Positions 1 through 9,703 of a DNA stretch of 36,379 nt are shown piece by piece. This DNA is from a virus: positions 1 to 36,379 of the IMG/VR virus record IMGVR_UViG_3300047496_000071. The stretch is one strand, 5' to 3'. How positions within the stretch are numbered: position 1 is the first letter of the stretch; the number at the start of each line of letters is the position of its first letter. Position numbers and translations under genes: made by a program. The notes beneath the pieces are model-generated. The model worked only from the letters and a program-made list of their open reading frames with translations. It did not search any database and was not told where the DNA came from.

Positions 1-1242
1 CTCGGGGTACGCCAGAACGACGCCCACGATGCTATCCAGACGCGCCGGAAGCACGTCGTTGGACGGGTCCCACTGCTGGGCGAACCGGATGTTGTACCCT
101 TCGAACGACTCGGCCGCCGTCATCTTGACCAACGGGCTCAAATCGAGCATCGGGGGGTTCGCAAACACCACCGCATCGCGGTACCAGCCGAGCGACTGCT
201 TGATGAGCTGCCCGGAAGTAGCCGCAATGTTGGCCGTGCCGGTCTGACCGAACACGTAGATGGCCGCGCCCGTTGCCGGTACGCTGTCCACGTTCTGGTA
301 CGCACCGCCGGTGATGATGCCCGGAGCGATCGGAATCGCAATTGCGCCCGCAGTGTCGCTGATGGTCGTGGTCACGACGAACTGCTTCAAGCGGCCCAAA
401 GACGCCTTCGTCTCCGGGTCCACGTCGTTCACGCCGGCGATCGAAATGACGTCGCCTGCGTTCAGAGTGGTGGTGCCCGAGCCCCAGCCGTTGGTGTTCA
501 ACGTGTAGGTGGCGACGAACGCATTACCCACGCCGCTGTTGCTTTGGCCGGCGCCATTCACAACCGGCGTGGAGCCCGTCACCGCGCCAATGGTGTGGGT
601 CGGCAGCTTCGTGTTACGGAAGCAGACATAGCCCGCAGCCTTGTCGCTGATGACGCCTTCCAACCACTGGTCGCTGATGGTCGATTCGGGGTTGAACAGA
701 CCCTTGTTGTCGTTGACGAAGTACATGGACGCCTGCGGGGTCGCAGTGAACGTCCGACGATCGTCTTCCGGCGCCAAGGTCTCGGTCAGATACCGTTCGT
801 TGAGCAGCAATTGCTGGAAAGTGGCGGTCGTGTTGTACGCGCCCACGAACTTGGGCACGCTGTTCAGCACCGCGGTCGCAATGTTCTCGATACCGGCCGC
901 CATGCGCGCCATTGCGGGCTCGAGCACCTGCTCCTCGAAGTTGTTCAGCAACATCGCGCGCTCGATCGAGGTGAAGTTGATGTCCACACCGACTTGCTGG
1001 TTGACGTTCAGCGTTGCAAAACGCTGCACGCTGTTCTGCGCGTTCATCGCGGCGCCCGTGCGCAGCTGGTACTGGAACGGCAGACGGATGCTGAGCTGTT
1101 GACCCAAGATCACGCCGTTGATCGGCCCGGGGAGCAAGCTCTGGTAGTCGCGGTTGGTGCGACCCGTGAAGTTCGACTTGGCGTGCAGCAAGACCAACGC
1201 TTTGCGCGCGACCCACTGTGCCGTAATGAGACTATTAGCCAT
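1..1242 (-). CDS. Major capsid (coat) protein, P22 gp5-like, 3' end cut by window edge
   Basis: The visible 414 codons begin MANSLITAQWVARKALVLL and continue with a TGRTNRDYQ segment. This is the typical start of the P22 coat family (P22 coat is about 430 residues), so probably only a few residues are missing. The protein would form the icosahedral shell around the scaffold. The middle part is rich in beta-type sequence with many Gly, Thr and Asn, as expected for the inserted domain of this family. The start at 1242 is set by a GAAAGG ribosome site. It is the last complete gene position of the scaffold-coat pair, directly downstream of the scaffold gene with a 15-nt gap. Family assignment is by recalled similarity, not by alignment. 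Confidence 0.88.
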   Translation of the reverse strand, partial: MANSLITAQWVARKALVLLHAKSNFTGRTNRDYQSLLPGPINGVILGQQLSIRLPFQYQLRTGAAMNAQNSVQRFATLNVNQQVGVDINFTSIERAMLLNNFEEQVLEPAMARMAAGIENIATAVLNSVPKFVGAYNTTATFQQLLLNERYLTETLAPEDDRRTFTATPQASMYFVNDNKGLFNPESTISDQWLEGVISDKAAGYVCFRNTKLPTHTIGAVTGSTPVVNGAGQSNSGVGNAFVATYTLNTNGWGSGTTTLNAGDVISIAGVNDVDPETKASLGRLKQFVVTTTISDTAGAIAIPIAPGIITGGAYQNVDSVPATGAAIYVFGQTGTANIAATSGQLIKQSLGWYRDAVVFANPPMLDLSPLVKMTAAESFEGYNIRFAQQWDPSNDVLPARLDSIVGVVLAYPE

Positions 1243-1257
1243 TGAAATGCCTTTCGG

Positions 1258-2418
1258 TTAGTTCAAACCACGCATCTTGCGAGCCGCAAGTCTTGCGTTA
1301 TTTTTCGACTCCCGATGACGCCGCGCGAACTCGTCCATGTCCATACCTGGATCGGTGATTTCGCGGCCCTGCGCTCGCTTGCCGGCGGGCACGGGTGTCG
1401 GGGGAGGCGGTGCTTGAGAGACGGACTTCTTGACGACGGGTTTCGCACTCGTCACAGGAGTCTTGGCTGTCGATGTCGGCGCGGGCTTTGCGGCCGCCGC
1501 CAATGTGGCTTTGAGAACGCCAATTTCCATCACTTGATCCTCCGGCGCGAGCGCAGCGATGCGCTTTGCTTCCGCGATGTTGGATGCCAAGTGGTAGACC
1601 ATTTGCGGGCCAAGTTCGGACTTCACGAGGACGGATTGCGCCGCCGGGTCCAGCTTAGGCAGTTCAGGGTTTCGCACTTTCGCATCCCAGTCGGTCGCGG
1701 TCTTTTTGAAGTCCTCGATCCGAGATTGGAAAGTTTGAACCGTCTTTGCTGCTTCCGTCTGTTTGCCGGCCGTTTGCAACGCCGCCTTGACGCTCAGTTC
1801 GACCTTTTTTTCCGTCCACTCCTCGACTTTTTGGGCGAGGGTGTCCGGATCAAAGTTCACATCGGGGTCGGTCAGCTTGGGCATGGGCCCAAGCTTGGCT
1901 ACTGGCGCAGCCGGCGGCGTTTCAGCCGCTGGCGCCGGCTTGTCGCCGGCTAGTTGCGCCCGGAGCGCGGCCAGTTCCTCGCGTGCAGCTTTGAGCTGTT
2001 CCGCGGTGAGCTTGCCGAACTCCTTGTAGCCTTCCGCTAAGTCACTCGCTTCCAATGCCTTGGCGTTGAGTTCCTGTATGCGTTTGAACGCTCTGCTCTG
2101 CTTCGGCTGCTGGCCGGTGCTCTCAGTTTCACCTTCGGTCAACTCACCTTCCGGTTCGCCTTCCGTTTCGCCTTCTGCCGTTTCGCCAGATTCATCAGCG
2201 CCCTCAGTCGACGATTCTGAGGAGTTATCGTCGGAAGTCACGTCTCCAGCTTCGGGCTGGTCCGAGGCATCCGCGGCGGACGAATCCGCGTCTGCTGCCG
2301 ACTCGGTCGGCAAAGGCTCCGGCTCTGTCGCGGCCGGTGCAGTTACGATAGGTTTTTCCGCGACTTGGGTCTGCGGTTGCGACTCATAAGCCGCAAGATC
2401 ATCTCGAGTAAAAGCCAT
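1258..2418 (-). CDS. Capsid scaffolding protein
   Basis: 386 residues. The first ~110 residues are very acidic, rich in Glu, Ser, Ala and Asp, with low complexity. The middle (about 120-300) is charged and helical with coiled-coil character. The last ~60 residues are Pro-rich and then strongly basic (an RRHRESK and RKMRG tail). A disordered acidic N-terminus plus a basic C-terminal coat-binding helix is the normal build of podovirus scaffolds, and its place immediately before the coat gene fits. It would guide procapsid assembly and then leave or be degraded. Start supported by an AGGGGA ribosome site. No sequence-level family match can be claimed beyond this architecture. Confidence 0.78.
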   Translation of the reverse strand: MAFTRDDLAAYESQPQTQVAEKPIVTAPAATEPEPLPTESAADADSSAADASDQPEAGDVTSDDNSSESSTEGADESGETAEGETEGEPEGELTEGETESTGQQPKQSRAFKRIQELNAKALEASDLAEGYKEFGKLTAEQLKAAREELAALRAQLAGDKPAPAAETPPAAPVAKLGPMPKLTDPDVNFDPDTLAQKVEEWTEKKVELSVKAALQTAGKQTEAAKTVQTFQSRIEDFKKTATDWDAKVRNPELPKLDPAAQSVLVKSELGPQMVYHLASNIAEAKRIAALAPEDQVMEIGVLKATLAAAAKPAPTSTAKTPVTSAKPVVKKSVSQAPPPPTPVPAGKRAQGREITDPGMDMDEFARRHRESKNNARLAARKMRGLN

Positions 2419-2482
2419 TTCAATCCCCTAACGCAGCTCTACGCGGCTGCGACGCGATTCTCACCGGGATTGGTGTTCGAAT

Positions 2483-2995
2483 TCAGTTGCCGCCGTAAGT
2501 CGCGTACCCGACCTCGACGACGGCATTTGACGTCGCAACAAACGCGGGCATCGCCGACGTATTGATGTTGAAAGTCGCAGTCCACGCGCCAGATGATCCA
2601 CCCACGGCGGTGATCGTTGCATTCACGTTGTTGAGCGCGATCATGCCGGAGATATTCTCGAAGTTGAGGTTGTAGCCAACCGTGAACGGGTTCGTTGACG
2701 ACACTTGGTTGATCGTGACCACGCCCGAAGACGCCTGCGAAATTGCGGTGACGGTGTACGTAGGCGCAAATTGCAGCAAGGCCGCCGATGCGGAGGCGCT
2801 TACCGCCCCCGAACTGAGAGCTTGCGCCAAGGTCGTCGGGTTCGCGTTCGACAGAAAAATTTCCGTCTGCGCCGGCAGCACACCGATTGCCATCGCCTGC
2901 AAAACCGTGATGTTGGGCGGCAAACCGTTATACGGGGACGGGCCAACCTGACCAACAGGCGTACCAAGATCCGGGTTGGGTAAAATCTGCGTCAT
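2483..2995 (-). CDS. Putative virion protein with FCCH-like beta repeat
   Basis: 170 residues, mostly Ala, Thr, Ser, Asn and Val, predicted beta-rich. The segment around residues 100-135 (ISGMIALNNVNATITAV) resembles the short 'V-GM-LN-TV' beta unit often annotated as an E1 FCCH-like domain in phage virion proteins. It lies between portal and scaffold, where head-decoration or head-completion genes commonly sit, so a structural role is likely. Start supported by AGGAG at suitable spacing. Exact function not recognised. The 64 nt between this gene and the scaffold gene hold only a short hairpin and the scaffold ribosome site. Confidence 0.7.
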   Translation of the reverse strand: MTQILPNPDLGTPVGQVGPSPYNGLPPNITVLQAMAIGVLPAQTEIFLSNANPTTLAQALSSGAVSASASAALLQFAPTYTVTAISQASSGVVTINQVSSTNPFTVGYNLNFENISGMIALNNVNATITAVGGSSGAWTATFNINTSAMPAFVATSNAVVEVGYATYGGN

Positions 2996-3004
2996 TCTCT
3001 GCTC

Positions 3005-5209
3005 CTATGCTGCGGTCGGTGCCGCCTGCTGGTCGGCCGCAGCGGCTTCCCGCTCGGCTTGTGCTGCCAAGGCATCGTTGTGCATGTCTTGTGCCATTTT
3101 CTGATTGGCAAGGTGTTTCCCTGCGGTTTCATACATCAGCCGCAACCCTTCGAGGTGGCTAGCCGTTGCTTTGCTCGTGCCGATCGTCGCGTCAGCCGTT
3201 GCCTTTTGCAGCTTGGCTTGCATCAACTGCATTTCCAGTTGATGCGCCGGGTTCTGCGGAGCCGGCGGCGTAGTTTTCTTTTCCTCGTCCGTCGGCTGCA
3301 CCACACCCTGCTGAATGAGTGGGATGCGCAATCGTCGCGCCATCTCGATCGAATCCGGCGAGTCGATGTTCTTGACCAACAAGTCGGGACACAGCTGAGC
3401 CACTTGCGGAATAGTGGCCGAAGCGTCGATCAAAGTCTGCAACGTCTCTTGCCGCTGGGTCTGGAAGCTTGGGCCAATGGTTACAGTGCAATCGTACGTC
3501 CCCGCTTTGAGGTCGTTGATGATGTCGCCACCGTCTTCGCCACCTTGGTTCACCGTCACCAACCGTTCGATACCATCGTGCCCTATGATTCGTTCGACGC
3601 GCTCCGCATCGTATACCGTGGGTATCATATCGATCATGATTTCCCACGTCAGTTGCAGCGCGGCTGAAAAGCCGTCGACGAATTCATAGGAGCCCAGGTC
3701 GGACCTACGTGTGTGCTGCACCAACGCTTTTCCGCTAACCCGGTTCATATCCTCAGAATTACCGAGGGCGGGGTCAAAATACCCTGTAGTAGCCTGAATA
3801 TCCTGCTGCGCGAGCTGAGCGAGCGCCATAGCGCCCTGCGGCAGATCGATCGGCGGCGTGCGGTATGGCATACCGCCCTCCGGCGCTTTCGGATCTATGT
3901 TGTACGGCAGGTACGGACGCGACTGCACGTTCGCCTGGTTCCACTCGTTTTCGTACCCCTTAATCATCATTTCCGTCACGAGATACGGCGCTTTCGGCAC
4001 AAGGGCGCTGCGCTCGATCATATCCGAGCATCGGCTGTTGTAGCTGCGCTGCGCATCCTTGGCGTGACGCACGAGGCTTTGCAGTTTCTTGCGGCCCTCA
4101 ATGTTCACATAACGACCAGGGCAACGGATGATTGGAATGCGCTTCCAATCGTACAGGAACGGCCCCTCAAGCACGTTCGAGCCGTCACACTTGACCCACA
4201 GCACCTTCCACGCAATCGTTTTGCGGACGCGCGGGCTGCCATCTTTGTTCTTTGCGAGTCGCGTGACGCTCTCGTCGTCGACTTCCGACTCCTCGAAATG
4301 CGCCTCAAGCTCTTTGAGCTTGTCGTCGTAGTCGCGCACTTCGCCGTTCGTCATTTGCGCGATCCACTTTTCAGTCGGCACGCGCTCATAATACTCGGCG
4401 ACGCGCACTTCTTTGTCGGTGAACCAGCCGTAACTGTCGCGCGAGAAGTTGAAGCTCGTCCCCTTCTCGGAATTGAACATCGCGCGGTACATATCGTCCG
4501 ATATGCGCTCGGCAACGATCGCCTTGTTGGCGTCCCCCGCGCACGGATCTTCGCACTCCGGGTCCCAAACCACGGTCTGCGGGTTCGGGATGTTGACGAT
4601 GCGCAGCACTTGATCAAACGCATTCTTGCCGTCATCGGCCATGTACTTGGGCATCACGCGCCACGCGCCATATCCGCCGGCTACGGCGTACTTGTACTGT
4701 TCCTTGTAAATGTGCTCCGCCCGGGACGCCTGTTCGATCGAGCGACACAGGCCGGCGTACACGTCAGCGACGGCCTCTTGTGCCTCGTCGCTGGCCGGGC
4801 GCACCGTGCCGGCGGGCTTTGTCTGCCGCATGTCGGCGACCACAATGTTCACCGGGCCGATGACGCGGTTGAAGGTATAGCACGGCTTGCCGCGGCGATT
4901 CTGCAACACGACGGGGTCCCATTGACCCATCGCCTCGCTGTTGTAGATGAAATTCAGGTCTTCTGAGTGCATCCGGCGGTTTTCTTCAAACGCGCCGACG
5001 CCTTCGTCGTAGAACTTCCGGATGCGAGACAACAGCGACTCGTTCTCGTTGACGTCTTCGTAGGCGTCGACGTTCGAGAACTTGCCCGTGTACCCTGGGA
5101 CGTCACCGACTAGATCGGAGTTGTCCTGCGGGTTGCCCGGGCTGCGGCTCCGGCGTTTGTTGCTGCCGGAGCCGTCTTGCGCGTTGTCTTTTTGCAGGTA
5201 GCTAGCCAT
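3005..5209 (-). CDS. Portal protein, P22-like
   Basis: 734 residues, close to the ~725 of P22 gp1. It contains segments characteristic of this portal family: a FYDEGVGAFEENR helix near residue 70, CYTFNRVIGPVNIVVADMRQ near 110, VVWDPECEDPC near 215, and a long C-terminal Gln/Ala-rich helical region (about 640-734) matching the barrel or crown extension. The portal forms the dodecameric DNA entry channel and docks the terminase. It is preceded by the terminase genes and followed by scaffold and coat, the canonical packaging-head order. A 417-codon ORF lies antisense to it but has no recognisable motif and is treated as a shadow. Confidence 0.9.
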   Translation of the reverse strand: MASYLQKDNAQDGSGSNKRRSRSPGNPQDNSDLVGDVPGYTGKFSNVDAYEDVNENESLLSRIRKFYDEGVGAFEENRRMHSEDLNFIYNSEAMGQWDPVVLQNRRGKPCYTFNRVIGPVNIVVADMRQTKPAGTVRPASDEAQEAVADVYAGLCRSIEQASRAEHIYKEQYKYAVAGGYGAWRVMPKYMADDGKNAFDQVLRIVNIPNPQTVVWDPECEDPCAGDANKAIVAERISDDMYRAMFNSEKGTSFNFSRDSYGWFTDKEVRVAEYYERVPTEKWIAQMTNGEVRDYDDKLKELEAHFEESEVDDESVTRLAKNKDGSPRVRKTIAWKVLWVKCDGSNVLEGPFLYDWKRIPIIRCPGRYVNIEGRKKLQSLVRHAKDAQRSYNSRCSDMIERSALVPKAPYLVTEMMIKGYENEWNQANVQSRPYLPYNIDPKAPEGGMPYRTPPIDLPQGAMALAQLAQQDIQATTGYFDPALGNSEDMNRVSGKALVQHTRRSDLGSYEFVDGFSAALQLTWEIMIDMIPTVYDAERVERIIGHDGIERLVTVNQGGEDGGDIINDLKAGTYDCTVTIGPSFQTQRQETLQTLIDASATIPQVAQLCPDLLVKNIDSPDSIEMARRLRIPLIQQGVVQPTDEEKKTTPPAPQNPAHQLEMQLMQAKLQKATADATIGTSKATASHLEGLRLMYETAGKHLANQKMAQDMHNDALAAQAEREAAAADQQAAPTAA

Positions 5210-5701: not shown

Positions 5702-6451
5702 TCAGCCGCTCCAAACCGGCGGCGGGGTCCATGCAAACCAAGGGTTGCCGTTCGGCGTATTCGCCGGGGGCGTTTTCAAATAATTGTGCTCAGCCGTAAG
5801 GAGCGTCATCACGGCATACCGGAGCGCATCCATGAGGTGATCGTTGGCTTTTACGATGTTTCCTTTTTCGTCGCGCTGATACAACCGAAACTCGGCCAGC
5901 GTATTCGAAAGATTCGAAAACAGTTTGAGCTTGCCCGTCGACAGCCAATCCCAAACCATCGTGATGCCGGCGCCTACGGCGTTGTCTGCCAGCTCAAGCT
6001 TCAGACCCATGTCTCGGTACACGTCGAGCAACTTCTCGCCGGCGAGGCCGCGCTGGCCGCGCGAGGCGGGGTCTATGACGCCGGTCATCCAGTTGGCGCC
6101 CAACACCTCGAGCCCGCGCACATGGACCGCTGGATCGACCTTGCCGCGGTAATATTCCTTGTAGGCCACCCAGCCGTCGCTGTCCGGATCGCGCGCCACG
6201 AATAGCGCCGCGGTACGGTTCCAACCGGTGTCGAAACCGTACCCTCGAGGCCAATGGTGCGGAATCTCAAACGGCGCTATCGTGATGTCGGCTTCGTCAA
6301 GCGGGTAGATCGCGCCAGATCCTATCGACGGAAGGCCGCGCGTACGCGCCTGACGCTGCCACGGCGGGATACCGGACAGGATGCTCGCCTTCTGTTCTGC
6401 GCTCAAGTGCGGTACATCCTCCCAGCCCACCATCACCGCGGCCTTAGACAT
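5702..6451 (-). CDS. Terminase large subunit, nuclease domain as a separate ORF
   Basis: 249 residues. The opening (VGWEDVPHLSAEQK, then a GSGAIYP stretch) is the usual linker that follows the ATPase motifs in TerL. It continues into an RNase H-like nuclease fold with the expected acidic residues in GFDTGW, GVIDPAS and HLMDALRY. It would cut concatemeric DNA during headful packaging. The start ATG at 6451 overlaps the stop of the ATPase ORF by 8 nt, in the +1 frame, with GAGGA upstream. The large subunit is therefore split into two polypeptides unless a frameshift joins them. A sequencing error of one base is the main alternative. Confidence 0.88.
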   Translation of the reverse strand: MSKAAVMVGWEDVPHLSAEQKASILSGIPPWQRQARTRGLPSIGSGAIYPLDEADITIAPFEIPHHWPRGYGFDTGWNRTAALFVARDPDSDGWVAYKEYYRGKVDPAVHVRGLEVLGANWMTGVIDPASRGQRGLAGEKLLDVYRDMGLKLELADNAVGAGITMVWDWLSTGKLKLFSNLSNTLAEFRLYQRDEKGNIVKANDHLMDALRYAVMTLLTAEHNYLKTPPANTPNGNPWFAWTPPPVWSG

Positions 6452-8108
6452 CCGCCGGTTCCTCGTCGTAGTTTTCGTCGAGTTCGTCCATTGTGCGCGG
6501 CGCCAAGTGGGGCATGTACTGCAACATGAGCTGCGTAACGCCGCGCAATGGTGTCGCCGTCAACATCAACCGGCCATCGCGAGTCATCAAACGAAGCAAG
6601 CACTCCGTGTAAATCTCGATCGACGGCTCCTCATCCAAATGGATGAAGTCTTGAGCGGTACCTTGAAACGCTTCGCGTCCCTGGTCGTAACTCTTGAACT
6701 GCAACGTCGAGACCCCGCCTGTCGGTACATGCCTCACGTATACGGTTTCGTATGCGTCAGGGATGCCGTGTTTGACTGTCGTACGCAGTATCAAATCGCC
6801 CGGGATCATCCCGGTACCGCGGGCCGAGTCGTCGCCGTACTTTCCGCACAGCGCGCTTTGCAGAATGTCCCGCGTGCTCTTGCCCGTGTCGCTCGCGGCC
6901 CAACCTTCCGTCGGCCGATCGAACCGGTACCCTTCCCACCAGTCAGGGTACTGCCCGGTCAGGTGCAGCGTGTCTGCGTACGTCCCTGCGACGGTTTTGC
7001 CGCTGTTATGGTGAATCGCCCCGGCCGCCACGTAGTTGTGCGGGCCTGGCACCTCAAAATCTACAATAGGCTGTACGCCTATTCCAGCCACTGCTAGAAT
7101 CCGGTTTCCGCCAACCACTGATAGAGGCTCACATGGCAACCACACGTTCTGGTGATGAGATAACAGCTGCAAAACTTCAAATTGCCAATCTGCTACGCGC
7201 TGGGCTCTACATTCAAGAGATATGCCGTCAGACAGCCCTTCCGGAAACTTCGGTAAGGCGTTGGGCGGAGCAACTGGGGCTGCCCATCTCGAAGTGCCGC
7301 TCCGGGCCAAAAGCCGGCCTAGAGCATCCTGAGTGGCGCGGAGGTCGTACGTACGATAAGCACGGCTATGCCCAAATCTGGATGCCGTTGCACCCGCAAG
7401 CGAACAATTCCGGTCGATGCTGGGAACACCGAGTTGTTGCCGAAGTAGTTCACGGACGCTACCTGCTACCAACCGAGGTAGTGAACCACGAGGACGGTCA
7501 CCCGCGCCATAACTGGCCTTCCAACCTGACCGTGTTCTCATCCAACGGAGACCACCTGCGTCACGACCTAACTGGCCGAGGTCACGGTACAAGCCCCCGG
7601 GCATCAATAGTCGGTGCTTATGGGAGCACTCAAAAACTTCGCCGTTGTCCAGATGAATCCGAAACGCTGGCTCTATGCCCTTTAGAAACACGCCAGTTGA
7701 TAGCGCATTTCGTCGAGTCACACCGTCCCACGCCTGAACACCGAACGCTCCCGCGCCGCAAACTTCGCGAACTTGGCGCTCACCGCGATCCGTGGGTATT
7801 ACCGTCCACGGCGTAAGACACCGGTTACCGCCAAACAGCGCGCACTCTTGATTGATTGCGCCGAGCTTGAACCATTCCATCTGCTTCGGATACGACTTTC
7901 GAACAGCTTCCGTCTCAAAGTAGGTCGAGATTCGATGCTGCGACAGGTGCCGAACTTTCGCCGCTATCGTCTCCAGCATCTTGAGCTTCGTCCGCCGGTC
8001 CAAGCTCTGAAAATTCTGCGTCAACTGCTCGAGGTAAGAGGTGCTTTTCTCCGCCGAGAGCGGTGAGCTGCTTGAGGACTTGTCCGAATCGGGCGTTGAG
8101 TTGGTCAT
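6444..8108 (-). CDS. Terminase large subunit, ATPase domain, interrupted by an intein
   Basis: 554-codon precursor. Residues 1-96 and 369-554 are the TerL ATPase; residues 97-368 are an intein. After splicing the product would be 282 residues with Walker A restored as GGNRSGKT, Walker B as FIHLDEEP and the coupling motif as LTATPLRG. It powers DNA translocation through the portal. The ATG at 8108 overlaps the small-subunit gene by 194 nt and has a weak ribosome site. An internal ATG at 7979 (MLETIAAKV) could be the true start. The ORF stops right after the ATPase region and the nuclease domain follows in another frame. Confidence 0.9.
   Translation of the reverse strand: MTNSTPDSDKSSSSSPLSAEKSTSYLEQLTQNFQSLDRRTKLKMLETIAAKVRHLSQHRISTYFETEAVRKSYPKQMEWFKLGAINQECALFGGNRCLTPWTVIPTDRGERQVREVCGAGAFGVQAWDGVTRRNALSTGVFLKGIEPAFRIHLDNGEVFECSHKHRLLMPGGLYRDLGQLGRDAGGLRWMRTRSGWKASYGAGDRPRGSLPRLVAGSVRELLRQQLGVPSIDRNCSLAGATASRFGHSRAYRTYDLRATQDALGRLLARSGTSRWAAPVAPPNALPKFPEGLSDGISLECRAQRVADWQFEVLQLLSHHQNVWLPCEPLSVVGGNRILAVAGIGVQPIVDFEVPGPHNYVAAGAIHHNSGKTVAGTYADTLHLTGQYPDWWEGYRFDRPTEGWAASDTGKSTRDILQSALCGKYGDDSARGTGMIPGDLILRTTVKHGIPDAYETVYVRHVPTGGVSTLQFKSYDQGREAFQGTAQDFIHLDEEPSIEIYTECLLRLMTRDGRLMLTATPLRGVTQLMLQYMPHLAPRTMDELDENYDEEPADV
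7092..7100 (+). promoter_or_regulatory. Possible extended -10 promoter for antisense HNH gene
   Basis: TGCTAGAAT matches an extended -10 (TG-N-TATAAT with one mismatch) 32 nt before the HNH start. Only a poor -35 (TGTACG) is present at 17-nt spacing. It would allow transcription against the late operon. It is a pattern match within coding sequence only. Confidence 0.3.
7133..7816 (+). CDS. HNH homing endonuclease encoded antisense within the intein
   Basis: 227 residues, wholly inside the intein but on the other strand, ending 1 nt before the intein's Cys1 codon. Residues 8-50 look like a helix-turn-helix (ETSVRRWAEQLGL). Residues 70-145 carry the HNH signature in order: GGRTYDKHGYAQIW, EHRVVAEVVHGRYL, VVNHEDG, NWPSNLTV and HLRHDL. 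The ATG has a GAGG site 5 nt upstream. The HNH core lies opposite intein residues about 85-133, where an in-frame endonuclease would normally be inserted. The last ~80 residues lie opposite splicing blocks A and B and may be little more than read-through. It probably cuts intein-less terL alleles. The antisense arrangement is seen directly; the homing role is inferred. Confidence 0.85.
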   Translation: MATTRSGDEITAAKLQIANLLRAGLYIQEICRQTALPETSVRRWAEQLGLPISKCRSGPKAGLEHPEWRGGRTYDKHGYAQIWMPLHPQANNSGRCWEHRVVAEVVHGRYLLPTEVVNHEDGHPRHNWPSNLTVFSSNGDHLRHDLTGRGHGTSPRASIVGAYGSTQKLRRCPDESETLALCPLETRQLIAHFVESHRPTPEHRTLPRRKLRELGAHRDPWVLPSTA

Positions 8109-8958
8109 CGGTCAGTTTCTCGGTGACGTTTACGTCCATCTTGAGCTTTTGCGCATATTCAGGCAGTTTTGCCGTCAAAACTCGGTCGAGAAGCCGGCTG
8201 TCGCCGTTTTTTGCCTTCCGAATCGCGTGCTCATCCAAAATTCTGTTCGCCAAGGGCTCGGCGTCGGCCAAAGTAGCCGCAAATTCGCCGTTATTCTGCA
8301 CCTCAAGCTGAAAATGGTAGTTGCTGACTTGGATCGCGTCGCGCGCAAGCCCCAAATCGCCGGTATCGATGAACACGCGGATCAAAATCGCGCGTTTTTC
8401 GTCGTCCCAGTCAAAATTTTCCTCGAGTCGCAGCGTGTGCGACATGCCCAACTGCCCTTCAAGCGCATTTACCGCCTCGCGGAACACCTGAGAATACGAC
8501 AGCCTTGCGCGAAACACCGCGCCGTCGGTCCCGACGTCATGCGCGGCTGCGTCAAAATCCTTGGTGCGCGCGTAAGCGACCAGAAAACGCTTCTCTTGGT
8601 CACTAGGCTCAAGAGGACGAGGCGGCACCACCACCGGGCTTGCACTGGAGCCCGTAGATCGTTCCGAGTACGGGCGCGGGCGATTGGTGTACTCGGCAAC
8701 GCCCTTGCCCCCTATCGCCGCTAGGTTGTCTTTCACGCGCCTACAATCAACGCAGAACCGCGGGTTTGACACATACCGCGGTGCCTTGTGCCCGTGGGAA
8801 CATACGTCGCCCACGTAGAACCATTTCCAGCCGCGCGTCTTGGCCTCGTCCATAGGGACGAACCGCGTCGGCAGATAGTTGTAGAGGTCAGGTTTGCCGT
8901 CTTTGCTGAGCGGCGCTATCAGCGCCAGCTCTTTTTCGTTTAGCTCCGGATACGTCAC
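7915..8958 (-). CDS. Putative terminase small subunit with N-terminal Cys/His motif
   Basis: 347 residues, GTG start overlapping the upstream stop as GTGA. Residues ~45-75 contain a GDVCSHGHKAPRYV...FCVDC pattern, a small zinc-binding module seen in several phage proteins. Residues ~115-290 are helical, with a segment (KRFLVAYARTKDFDAAAHDVG) that reads like the DNA-binding head of small terminases, followed by an oligomerisation-type helical region. The tail is acidic. Position directly before the large subunit supports TerS, which recognises the packaging site. The 3' end overlaps the large-subunit ORF by 194 nt. No diagnostic family motif was identified, so the call rests on context and fold pattern. 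Confidence 0.6.
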   Translation of the reverse strand: MTYPELNEKELALIAPLSKDGKPDLYNYLPTRFVPMDEAKTRGWKWFYVGDVCSHGHKAPRYVSNPRFCVDCRRVKDNLAAIGGKGVAEYTNRPRPYSERSTGSSASPVVVPPRPLEPSDQEKRFLVAYARTKDFDAAAHDVGTDGAVFRARLSYSQVFREAVNALEGQLGMSHTLRLEENFDWDDEKRAILIRVFIDTGDLGLARDAIQVSNYHFQLEVQNNGEFAATLADAEPLANRILDEHAIRKAKNGDSRLLDRVLTAKLPEYAQKLKMDVNVTEKLTDDQLNARFGQVLKQLTALGGEKHLLPRAVDAEFSELGPADEAQDAGDDSGESSAPVAASNLDLL

Positions 8959-9449
8959 GCGCGGGCCCAGCTCTCCGCTCCGCTCATGAAATGCCCGTTA
9001 CGGTCGTATCCCGCTGGCTGTTGCCACATCAACGCATCGCTCAACGATTCGTCCGGATCAATGCTCATGATGCCGTTCTGCCAAACCATCAGCAAATCGC
9101 CGACATCCGGCAACCCGATCGAAACCAAGTCTTCTTCGCGCACGATAAAGACGTTGCGCGGTGAGAACTCGACGACGTCGCCAACGGCCACCTTCATCGG
9201 CAGAATCGTGCCGGTCTCGGCGCCGTCTTCGAACTCCATAGCCCGGCCAAAGTGGCCTTCCATCTGGTTGAACCGCACCTTACGCCGCTGGCGCCGGCCG
9301 TACCCGACCGCGACCACGACGCCCTTCTGAATCTGAATCCCGGGCGTCAGCAACACGGGGTGGACGTAGGGCAACGGCTTTACCAGCACTCGATCGCGCA
9401 GCACGCGGATCTTTTGCCCGACATCTTCCAGCTCCGGTGACAGGATCAT
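8955..9449 (-). CDS. GroES-like co-chaperonin, long form
   Basis: 164 residues. IRVLRDRVLVKPLP at residues ~14-27 is the typical first strand of Cpn10 proteins. It is followed by KGVVVAVGYG and VAVGDVVEFSPRN, which match the G-x-V and VGD-V-x-F elements. The C-terminal third (FIVREEDLVSIG, then a ~45-residue extension) goes beyond a standard 97-residue GroES. It may adapt host GroEL for folding the coat protein, as gp31 does in T4. It overlaps both neighbours by 4 nt (ATGA and GTGA). The ~45 residues inserted between the two GroES-like strands include a basic RRQRRK patch, so a diverged or mobile-loop variant is likely. Confidence 0.75.
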   Translation of the reverse strand: MILSPELEDVGQKIRVLRDRVLVKPLPYVHPVLLTPGIQIQKGVVVAVGYGRRQRRKVRFNQMEGHFGRAMEFEDGAETGTILPMKVAVGDVVEFSPRNVFIVREEDLVSIGLPDVGDLLMVWQNGIMSIDPDESLSDALMWQQPAGYDRNGHFMSGAESWARA

Positions 9450-9703
9450 GATCCGATCACCGCATCGACGTCGCTGTCTCGCATGATGCGTATGCTGACG
9501 CCCTTGTACTGCGTCTCCATCCCCGTCGCCGCGCCGAACAGCACGGTGTCGCCGACCTTCGTCTCGCGCGCATCGGGGCCGGTCGCCACCACCTGGCCGC
9601 GGAGATTACGCTGCCAATCTGGCAGTAGGATCTTGCCGCGCGGCGCGACCTCCGGCTCGACGGCAATCATCTCGCCGAGGAGTCGCTGCGTAAAATTCAC
9701 CAT
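9446..9703 (-). CDS. GroES-like co-chaperonin, short form
   Basis: 85 residues spanning nearly a full Cpn10 fold: LLGEMIAVEPEVAPRGKILLPD as first strand and mobile-loop region, GQVVATGPDARETKVGDTVLFG as the core, and IRIMRDSDVDAVI as the last strand. It is shorter than host GroES by about 10 residues. Start ATG has a strong AGAGGTGAG site. It forms a tandem pair with the following 164-residue GroES-like gene (4-nt overlap), so the two may form a mixed ring or serve different substrates. Function is inferred from fold pattern only. Confidence 0.78.
   Translation of the reverse strand: MVNFTQRLLGEMIAVEPEVAPRGKILLPDWQRNLRGQVVATGPDARETKVGDTVLFGAATGMETQYKGVSIRIMRDSDVDAVIGS

Follow-up and report, generated by a model that had tools for sequence, protein, structure and literature searches.

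Phage terminase inteins with an HNH endonuclease gene on the opposite strand: a probable homing element divided between two strands

Bifunctional inteins carry a LAGLIDADG or HNH endonuclease domain in frame with the splicing domain, and the DNA for it lies between splicing blocks B and F. A second arrangement, the "fractured genes" reportedly described by Dassa in 2009, has a split intein with a free-standing endonuclease gene between the two halves. Endonuclease genes on the opposite strand are known from group I introns, where opposite-oriented HEGs occur, for example, in Didymium S956-2 (PMC13182076, citing Johansen 2006). Here we describe a locus in the virus record IMGVR_UViG_3300047496_000071, the 36,379 bases of which were analysed as a whole and are called the window below, where an HNH endonuclease frame faces a continuous intein in terL, the gene for the terminase large subunit (Table 1). 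We consider it very probable that this is a homing intein with an antisense-encoded endonuclease, TerL being restored by splicing.

Table 1. Features of the terL intein and of the HNH frame opposite it (window coordinates).
Feature	Position	Strand	Basis
Intein-bearing terL ORF, encoding the ATPase part of TerL	6444..8108	-	Pfam Terminase_6N, E 1.6e-9
N-extein; C-extein	8108-7821; 7004-6447	-	within terL ORF
Intein, 272 aa, C1...HHN then S, in Walker A motif (GGNR, intein, SGKT)	7005..7820	-	sequence, predicted fold
Intein N-terminal splicing part (block A to past block B, residues 1-104)	7509..7820	-	confident HINT fold, pLDDT mostly 86-95; conserved C1, S66xxH69
Intein residues 107-161, predicted disordered, opposite HNH core	7338..7502	-	pLDDT <50; free change at own codon position 2
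Intein C-terminal splicing part (residues 220-272, blocks F and G)	7005..7163	-	conserved residues, AlphaFold2 model
Shine-Dalgarno-like GAGG, 5 nt before ATG	7124..7127	+	match enriched across 43 elements
HTH+HNH endonuclease ORF, 227 aa, wholly inside intein DNA	7133..7816	+	ATG 7133, stop 7814-7816; phrog_20891
Helix-turn-helix of HNH protein (residues 7-48)	7151..7276	+	Pfam HTH_23 in relatives, AlphaFold2 model
HNH catalytic region (residues 73-149; invariant H99, H119, N131, H141)	7349..7579	+	relatives' alignment, PHROG
HNH C-terminal tail (residues 150-227), opposite intein blocks A-B	7580..7813	+	both frames constrained

The phage structural genes of the window, among them one for a P22-like portal, are on the minus strand. 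TerL is encoded there by two ORFs, one for the nuclease (5702-6451) and one for the ATPase, which overlap at ATGTCTAA; the same split is seen in several relatives (e.g. L002, L003, L004, and L111) and could mean either two subunits or frameshifting. Upstream of terL, also on the minus strand, 8955-9703 encodes two adjacent GroES/Cpn10-like proteins, the first of them below the Pfam cut-off.

The original prediction was of a complete 272-residue intein on the minus strand without an in-frame endonuclease, and of a 227-residue plus-strand protein with a helix-turn-helix and all HNH signature blocks, the HNH core lying opposite the segment between intein blocks B and F; both proteins were recovered as described. 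Specifically, i) the intein frame is free of stops and reads GGNR, then the intein from C1LTPWT to AAGAIHHN, then SGKT, with the class 1 residues (C1, S66xxH69, and H271-N272 followed by Ser) conserved across relatives; ii) the AlphaFold2 model of the intein matches the HINT fold of the NpuDnaB intein 4o1r (Foldseek E 2e-7), and other inteins match it too; iii) a bifunctional intein has its endonuclease in the frame of the splicing domain, but here the HNH is on the opposite strand, and no endonuclease family was found in the intein's own frame in the window or in the ten relatives scanned; iv) the HNH protein matches phrog_20891, "HNH endonuclease", with an E value of 1.6e-17, while Pfam HNH_3 and HTH_23 are below threshold in the window member and reach E<0.01 in 21 and 30, respectively, of 32 relatives; v) H99, H119, N131, and H141 are invariant in the 32 HNH members; and vi) the HNH core faces intein residues about 81 to 158. 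The splicing residues and predicted fold suggest that the intein restores TerL by protein splicing. The AlphaFold2 model of the HNH protein has a mean pLDDT of 87.9, with values of 92-97 over residues 161-200, so that the tail is modelled confidently. Searches of solved structures with the HNH profile and with the model, the latter hardly testing the tail, returned HTH proteins only and no HNH nuclease, probably because the beta-beta-alpha motif is small.

The antisense arrangement extends well beyond the window. A scan with the window HNH found nine relatives, and in 9/9 the gene faces a terL intein in the register seen in the window. An HNH profile scan then found 41 loci from viruses and one from a gammaproteobacterial MAG. 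Taken together, two profile scans gave 42 HNH relatives, every one of which lies antisense, in one phase, to an intein in the terL Walker A motif. Approached from the intein side, a profile scan found 22 loci, each with an antisense HNH (22/22, every intein of this first subfamily, family A, that was found). A second subfamily, family B, was reached through L122 and gave at least 517 matches in a profile scan; among the best 80 of these at least 517 matches, 80/80 lie opposite a terL Walker A intein and keep the same phase, six of the 80 lacking the simple motif and having been assigned by eye. The HTH and core are clearly homologous between the HNH proteins of the two subfamilies (hhalign E 1.7e-40), but the C-terminal tails do not align, and family B matches phrog_10730 over its full length. 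Free-standing HNH relatives (Halobacterium phage phiH, Mycobacterium phage Thibault, and L162-L164) are distant and match the core only. Homologous inteins, which on the original proposal should keep the antisense HNH, do so in every family member found. We conclude that the arrangement is a conserved family and not a coincidence. A free-standing HNH beside terL was considered as a source and rejected, the matches in phages Taid and PHS3 proving to be antisense inteins and the truly free-standing relatives being the distant, core-only ones.

The limits of the HNH gene are conserved relative to those of the intein. In the window the ATG lies 128 nt from the intein C-end and the stop 4 bp from the intein N-end; across 32 distinct family A elements the start codon (29 ATG, 3 GTG) lies 122-128 nt from the C-end and the stop mostly 4-28 bp inside the N-end, with two stops a few bases outside it and one shorter HNH (L018) whose stop is 172 bp inside. 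Family B has its ATG at 125-143 nt and its stops mostly 22-40 bp inside, one being 20 bp outside. The HNH ORF thus lies within intein DNA in nearly all members, and three of those compared end just outside. The intein Pro codon facing the HNH start is CCA in 27/28 cases, although CCN codons all encode Pro. As for expression, the GAGG claimed at 5 nt from the ATG is present, and Shine-Dalgarno-like matches are enriched in the family (an average of 4.3 nt across 43 elements vs 1.95 by chance, with matches of at least 4 nt in 34/43); the possible extended -10 element claimed with it found no support, a sigma-70 scan having detected no promoter for the antisense HNH gene.

In the closest intein-free TerL relatives (L013-L017, up to 91% identical) nothing is inserted at that codon, GGNR being followed directly by S/TGK, and a single metagenome (3300049218) yields both an intein-plus contig (L003) and an intein-minus contig (L014). 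HNH proteins that are about 50% identical occur in TerLs without detectable similarity to each other (73/496 pairs), and the host TerLs include both Terminase_6 and Terminase_3 types. Two nearby insertion points are used, one before S/TGK and the other shifted three residues downstream so as to follow the Walker A Lys; the downstream point was seen in L134-L138, L144, L018, and L019. In L159, L211, and L214 the N-terminal part of the HNH has been lost while the intein frame is still open; these endonucleases are likely decaying, as expected if splicing is kept while the endonuclease is free to decay. The terL ORF of L118 has a second intein downstream of the first (after NSYDQGR, and ending HN before TKWQ) with DG-containing motifs like those of an in-frame LAGLIDADG endonuclease, whereas L119 lacks the second intein; in L118 antisense and in-frame endonuclease architectures thus share one gene.

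We infer splicing, antisense expression, site-specific cleavage, and homing. One mobile element would consist of two antisense genes: the minus strand would encode an intein in the TerL P-loop that splices out and restores the terminase, and the plus strand a separate endonuclease made of an N-terminal HTH for DNA recognition, the HNH core, and a C-terminal helical tail. An antisense transcript would supply the nuclease, whose translation would begin at its own start; in co-infected cells it would cut intein-free terL at the Walker A codons, and the element would spread when the cut gene is repaired with the intein-bearing copy as template. With the two functions divided by strand, the nuclease would need neither splicing nor folding with a late gene product, and could have its own time of expression. 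The family-wide antisense HNH and the selection described below both favor the original suggestion of a compact homing element with splicing and mobility on separate strands. Nicking is common among HNH homing enzymes, and marker exclusion can be the work of free-standing HNHs; an HNH captured in antisense might accordingly now serve in nicking, in regulation, or in the exclusion of rival phages at intein-free terL rather than in homing. We regard such a role as unlikely, given an ORF that is nearly always confined to the intein and elements that pass from one TerL to a very different one while keeping to a single motif, both of which are expected for homing.

The register of the two frames is as originally claimed, with first codon positions opposed and the second position of each frame facing the wobble position of the other; plus position 3 faces minus position 2 and plus position 2 faces the minus wobble, so that constraint on each frame is separable. 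Over HNH residues 1-149 the ratio of position 3 to position 2 is 1.7-2.6 (parsimony steps per site), the pattern of plus-strand coding and equal to that of singly coded controls (wobble vs position 2: 12.2 vs 4.3 in blocks F-G, 14.4 vs 8.6 in the exteins), which makes the intein opposite a free linker. In the stretch that faces intein blocks A-B (HNH residues 150-227), change is slow at all positions (4.6-8.8 parsimony steps per site), and hence both frames are constrained. Family B shows the same codon-position pattern as family A. Conserved four-fold intein codons opposite the tail have a wobble entropy of 0.92 vs 1.69 bits (p=7e-4) and, in family B, of 0.63 vs 1.48 (p=0.0015), the p values being approximate because sites were treated as independent and parsimony was simple. 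Codon-position steps and wobble entropy together reveal the purifying selection on the plus frame that had been anticipated; the further claim that the register allows both proteins to be kept holds for the HNH tail opposite blocks A-B, which is dual-coding, but not for the intein opposite the HNH core, an unconstrained linker. Only the HNH C-terminal tail is truly dual-coding.

When the intein protein was held fixed and its synonymous codons were reshuffled, the plus frame stayed open in 0.8% of shuffles for the window member, and over 32 related elements log10 P sums to -75, although these are not phylogenetically independent. A chance antisense ORF is ruled out by the codon-position pattern and by family-wide conservation, and a tail that is mere read-through by the nearly fixed wobble bases in conserved four-fold intein codons. 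In its middle the intein is free of constraint and predicted to be disordered, as it might be were the HNH gene real and the minus frame a mere ORF with no working intein; we find this very improbable, since the splicing residues and flanks are conserved and a HINT fold is predicted, the singly coded blocks F-G evolve as a normal gene, the essential terL reads through in every member, and the chance of an open minus frame given the HNH protein is about 0.0025 in the window. Less credible still is the converse, that the ORF on the plus strand merely resembles an HNH gene and is a by-product, kept open only through conservation of the intein: the DNA is high in G+C, the window has many other antisense ORFs of 100-240 aa, and 4% of shuffles of the window member leave the tail ORF by itself open by chance, but the HNH and HTH resemble independent free-standing genes (phiH, Thibault), the constrained pattern over HNH residues 1-149 is in the plus frame and not in the intein frame, and the start, Shine-Dalgarno match, and stop are conserved. 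Returning to the antisense-encoded endonuclease, we think it probable that these elements are a widespread class of phage homing inteins in which a folded C-terminal domain of the endonuclease was gained by overprinting the intein N-terminal splicing blocks, with tails that apparently differ in at least two subfamilies, and in which both proteins are maintained.

The element is also present in cultured phages, and is therefore no artefact of metagenome assembly. Eight close cultured phages have the antisense HNH and terL (Pectobacterium phages Taid, Pappous, Koroua, Amona, Ymer, Abuela, and Sabo, and Dickeya phage Setonix), and Pseudoalteromonas phage PHS3 is a ninth with an antisense-HNH intein. 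The arrangement is unrecognised in the cultured-phage records examined: in Taid, terL is annotated as "hypothetical protein" and the HNH is unannotated, and in PHS3 (L166, KX912252) the HNH is annotated as APC46236 and the intein is unannotated. At 1041-3167 of PHS3 the annotation gave preference to the antisense HNH over the intein-bearing frame, so that the annotated TerL starts downstream of the intein and is missing its N-terminal part; reading the locus as an antisense intein explains such faulty annotations.

The HNH sequence family is thus already catalogued, as "HNH endonuclease" in phrog_10730 and phrog_20891 and as APC46236 in PHS3, and the two PHROG entries do not mention an antisense intein; nor did we find in the open-access literature any report of an antisense endonuclease in an intein. 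We would therefore separate what is known, namely antisense endonuclease genes in group I introns and the HNH sequences themselves, from what is apparently new, an intein with an antisense endonuclease. If our reading is correct, this would be a third homing-intein architecture beside the in-frame and split ones, with splicing and mobility separated by strand and an endonuclease timed and dosed independently of a late structural gene. It would also give antisense dual coding an unusually well supported example, in which more than 100 related loci allow constraint to be measured on both frames and a folded HNH domain seems to be the product of overprinting; and since the HNH family is present in databases and cultured phages, the predictions are directly testable.

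We wish to stress how the elements resemble and depart from each of the known systems. Like the group I introns exemplified by Didymium S956-2, they pair a self-splicing element on one strand with an endonuclease gene on the other; but the host of that intron is an rRNA, so that the strand opposite its endonuclease need not encode a protein, whereas here conserved proteins are encoded on both strands. Like the "fractured genes", they combine an intein with a separately translated endonuclease; but those systems have a split intein and non-overlapping genes, whereas here the intein is continuous and is overlapped by the endonuclease gene on the other strand. Finally, like in-frame bifunctional inteins, they have their endonuclease DNA between blocks B and F and interrupt a conserved motif of an essential gene, but in their case the endonuclease is encoded on the opposite strand as a protein in its own right, between a start and a stop of its own, and partly shares codons with the N-terminal splicing blocks of the intein.
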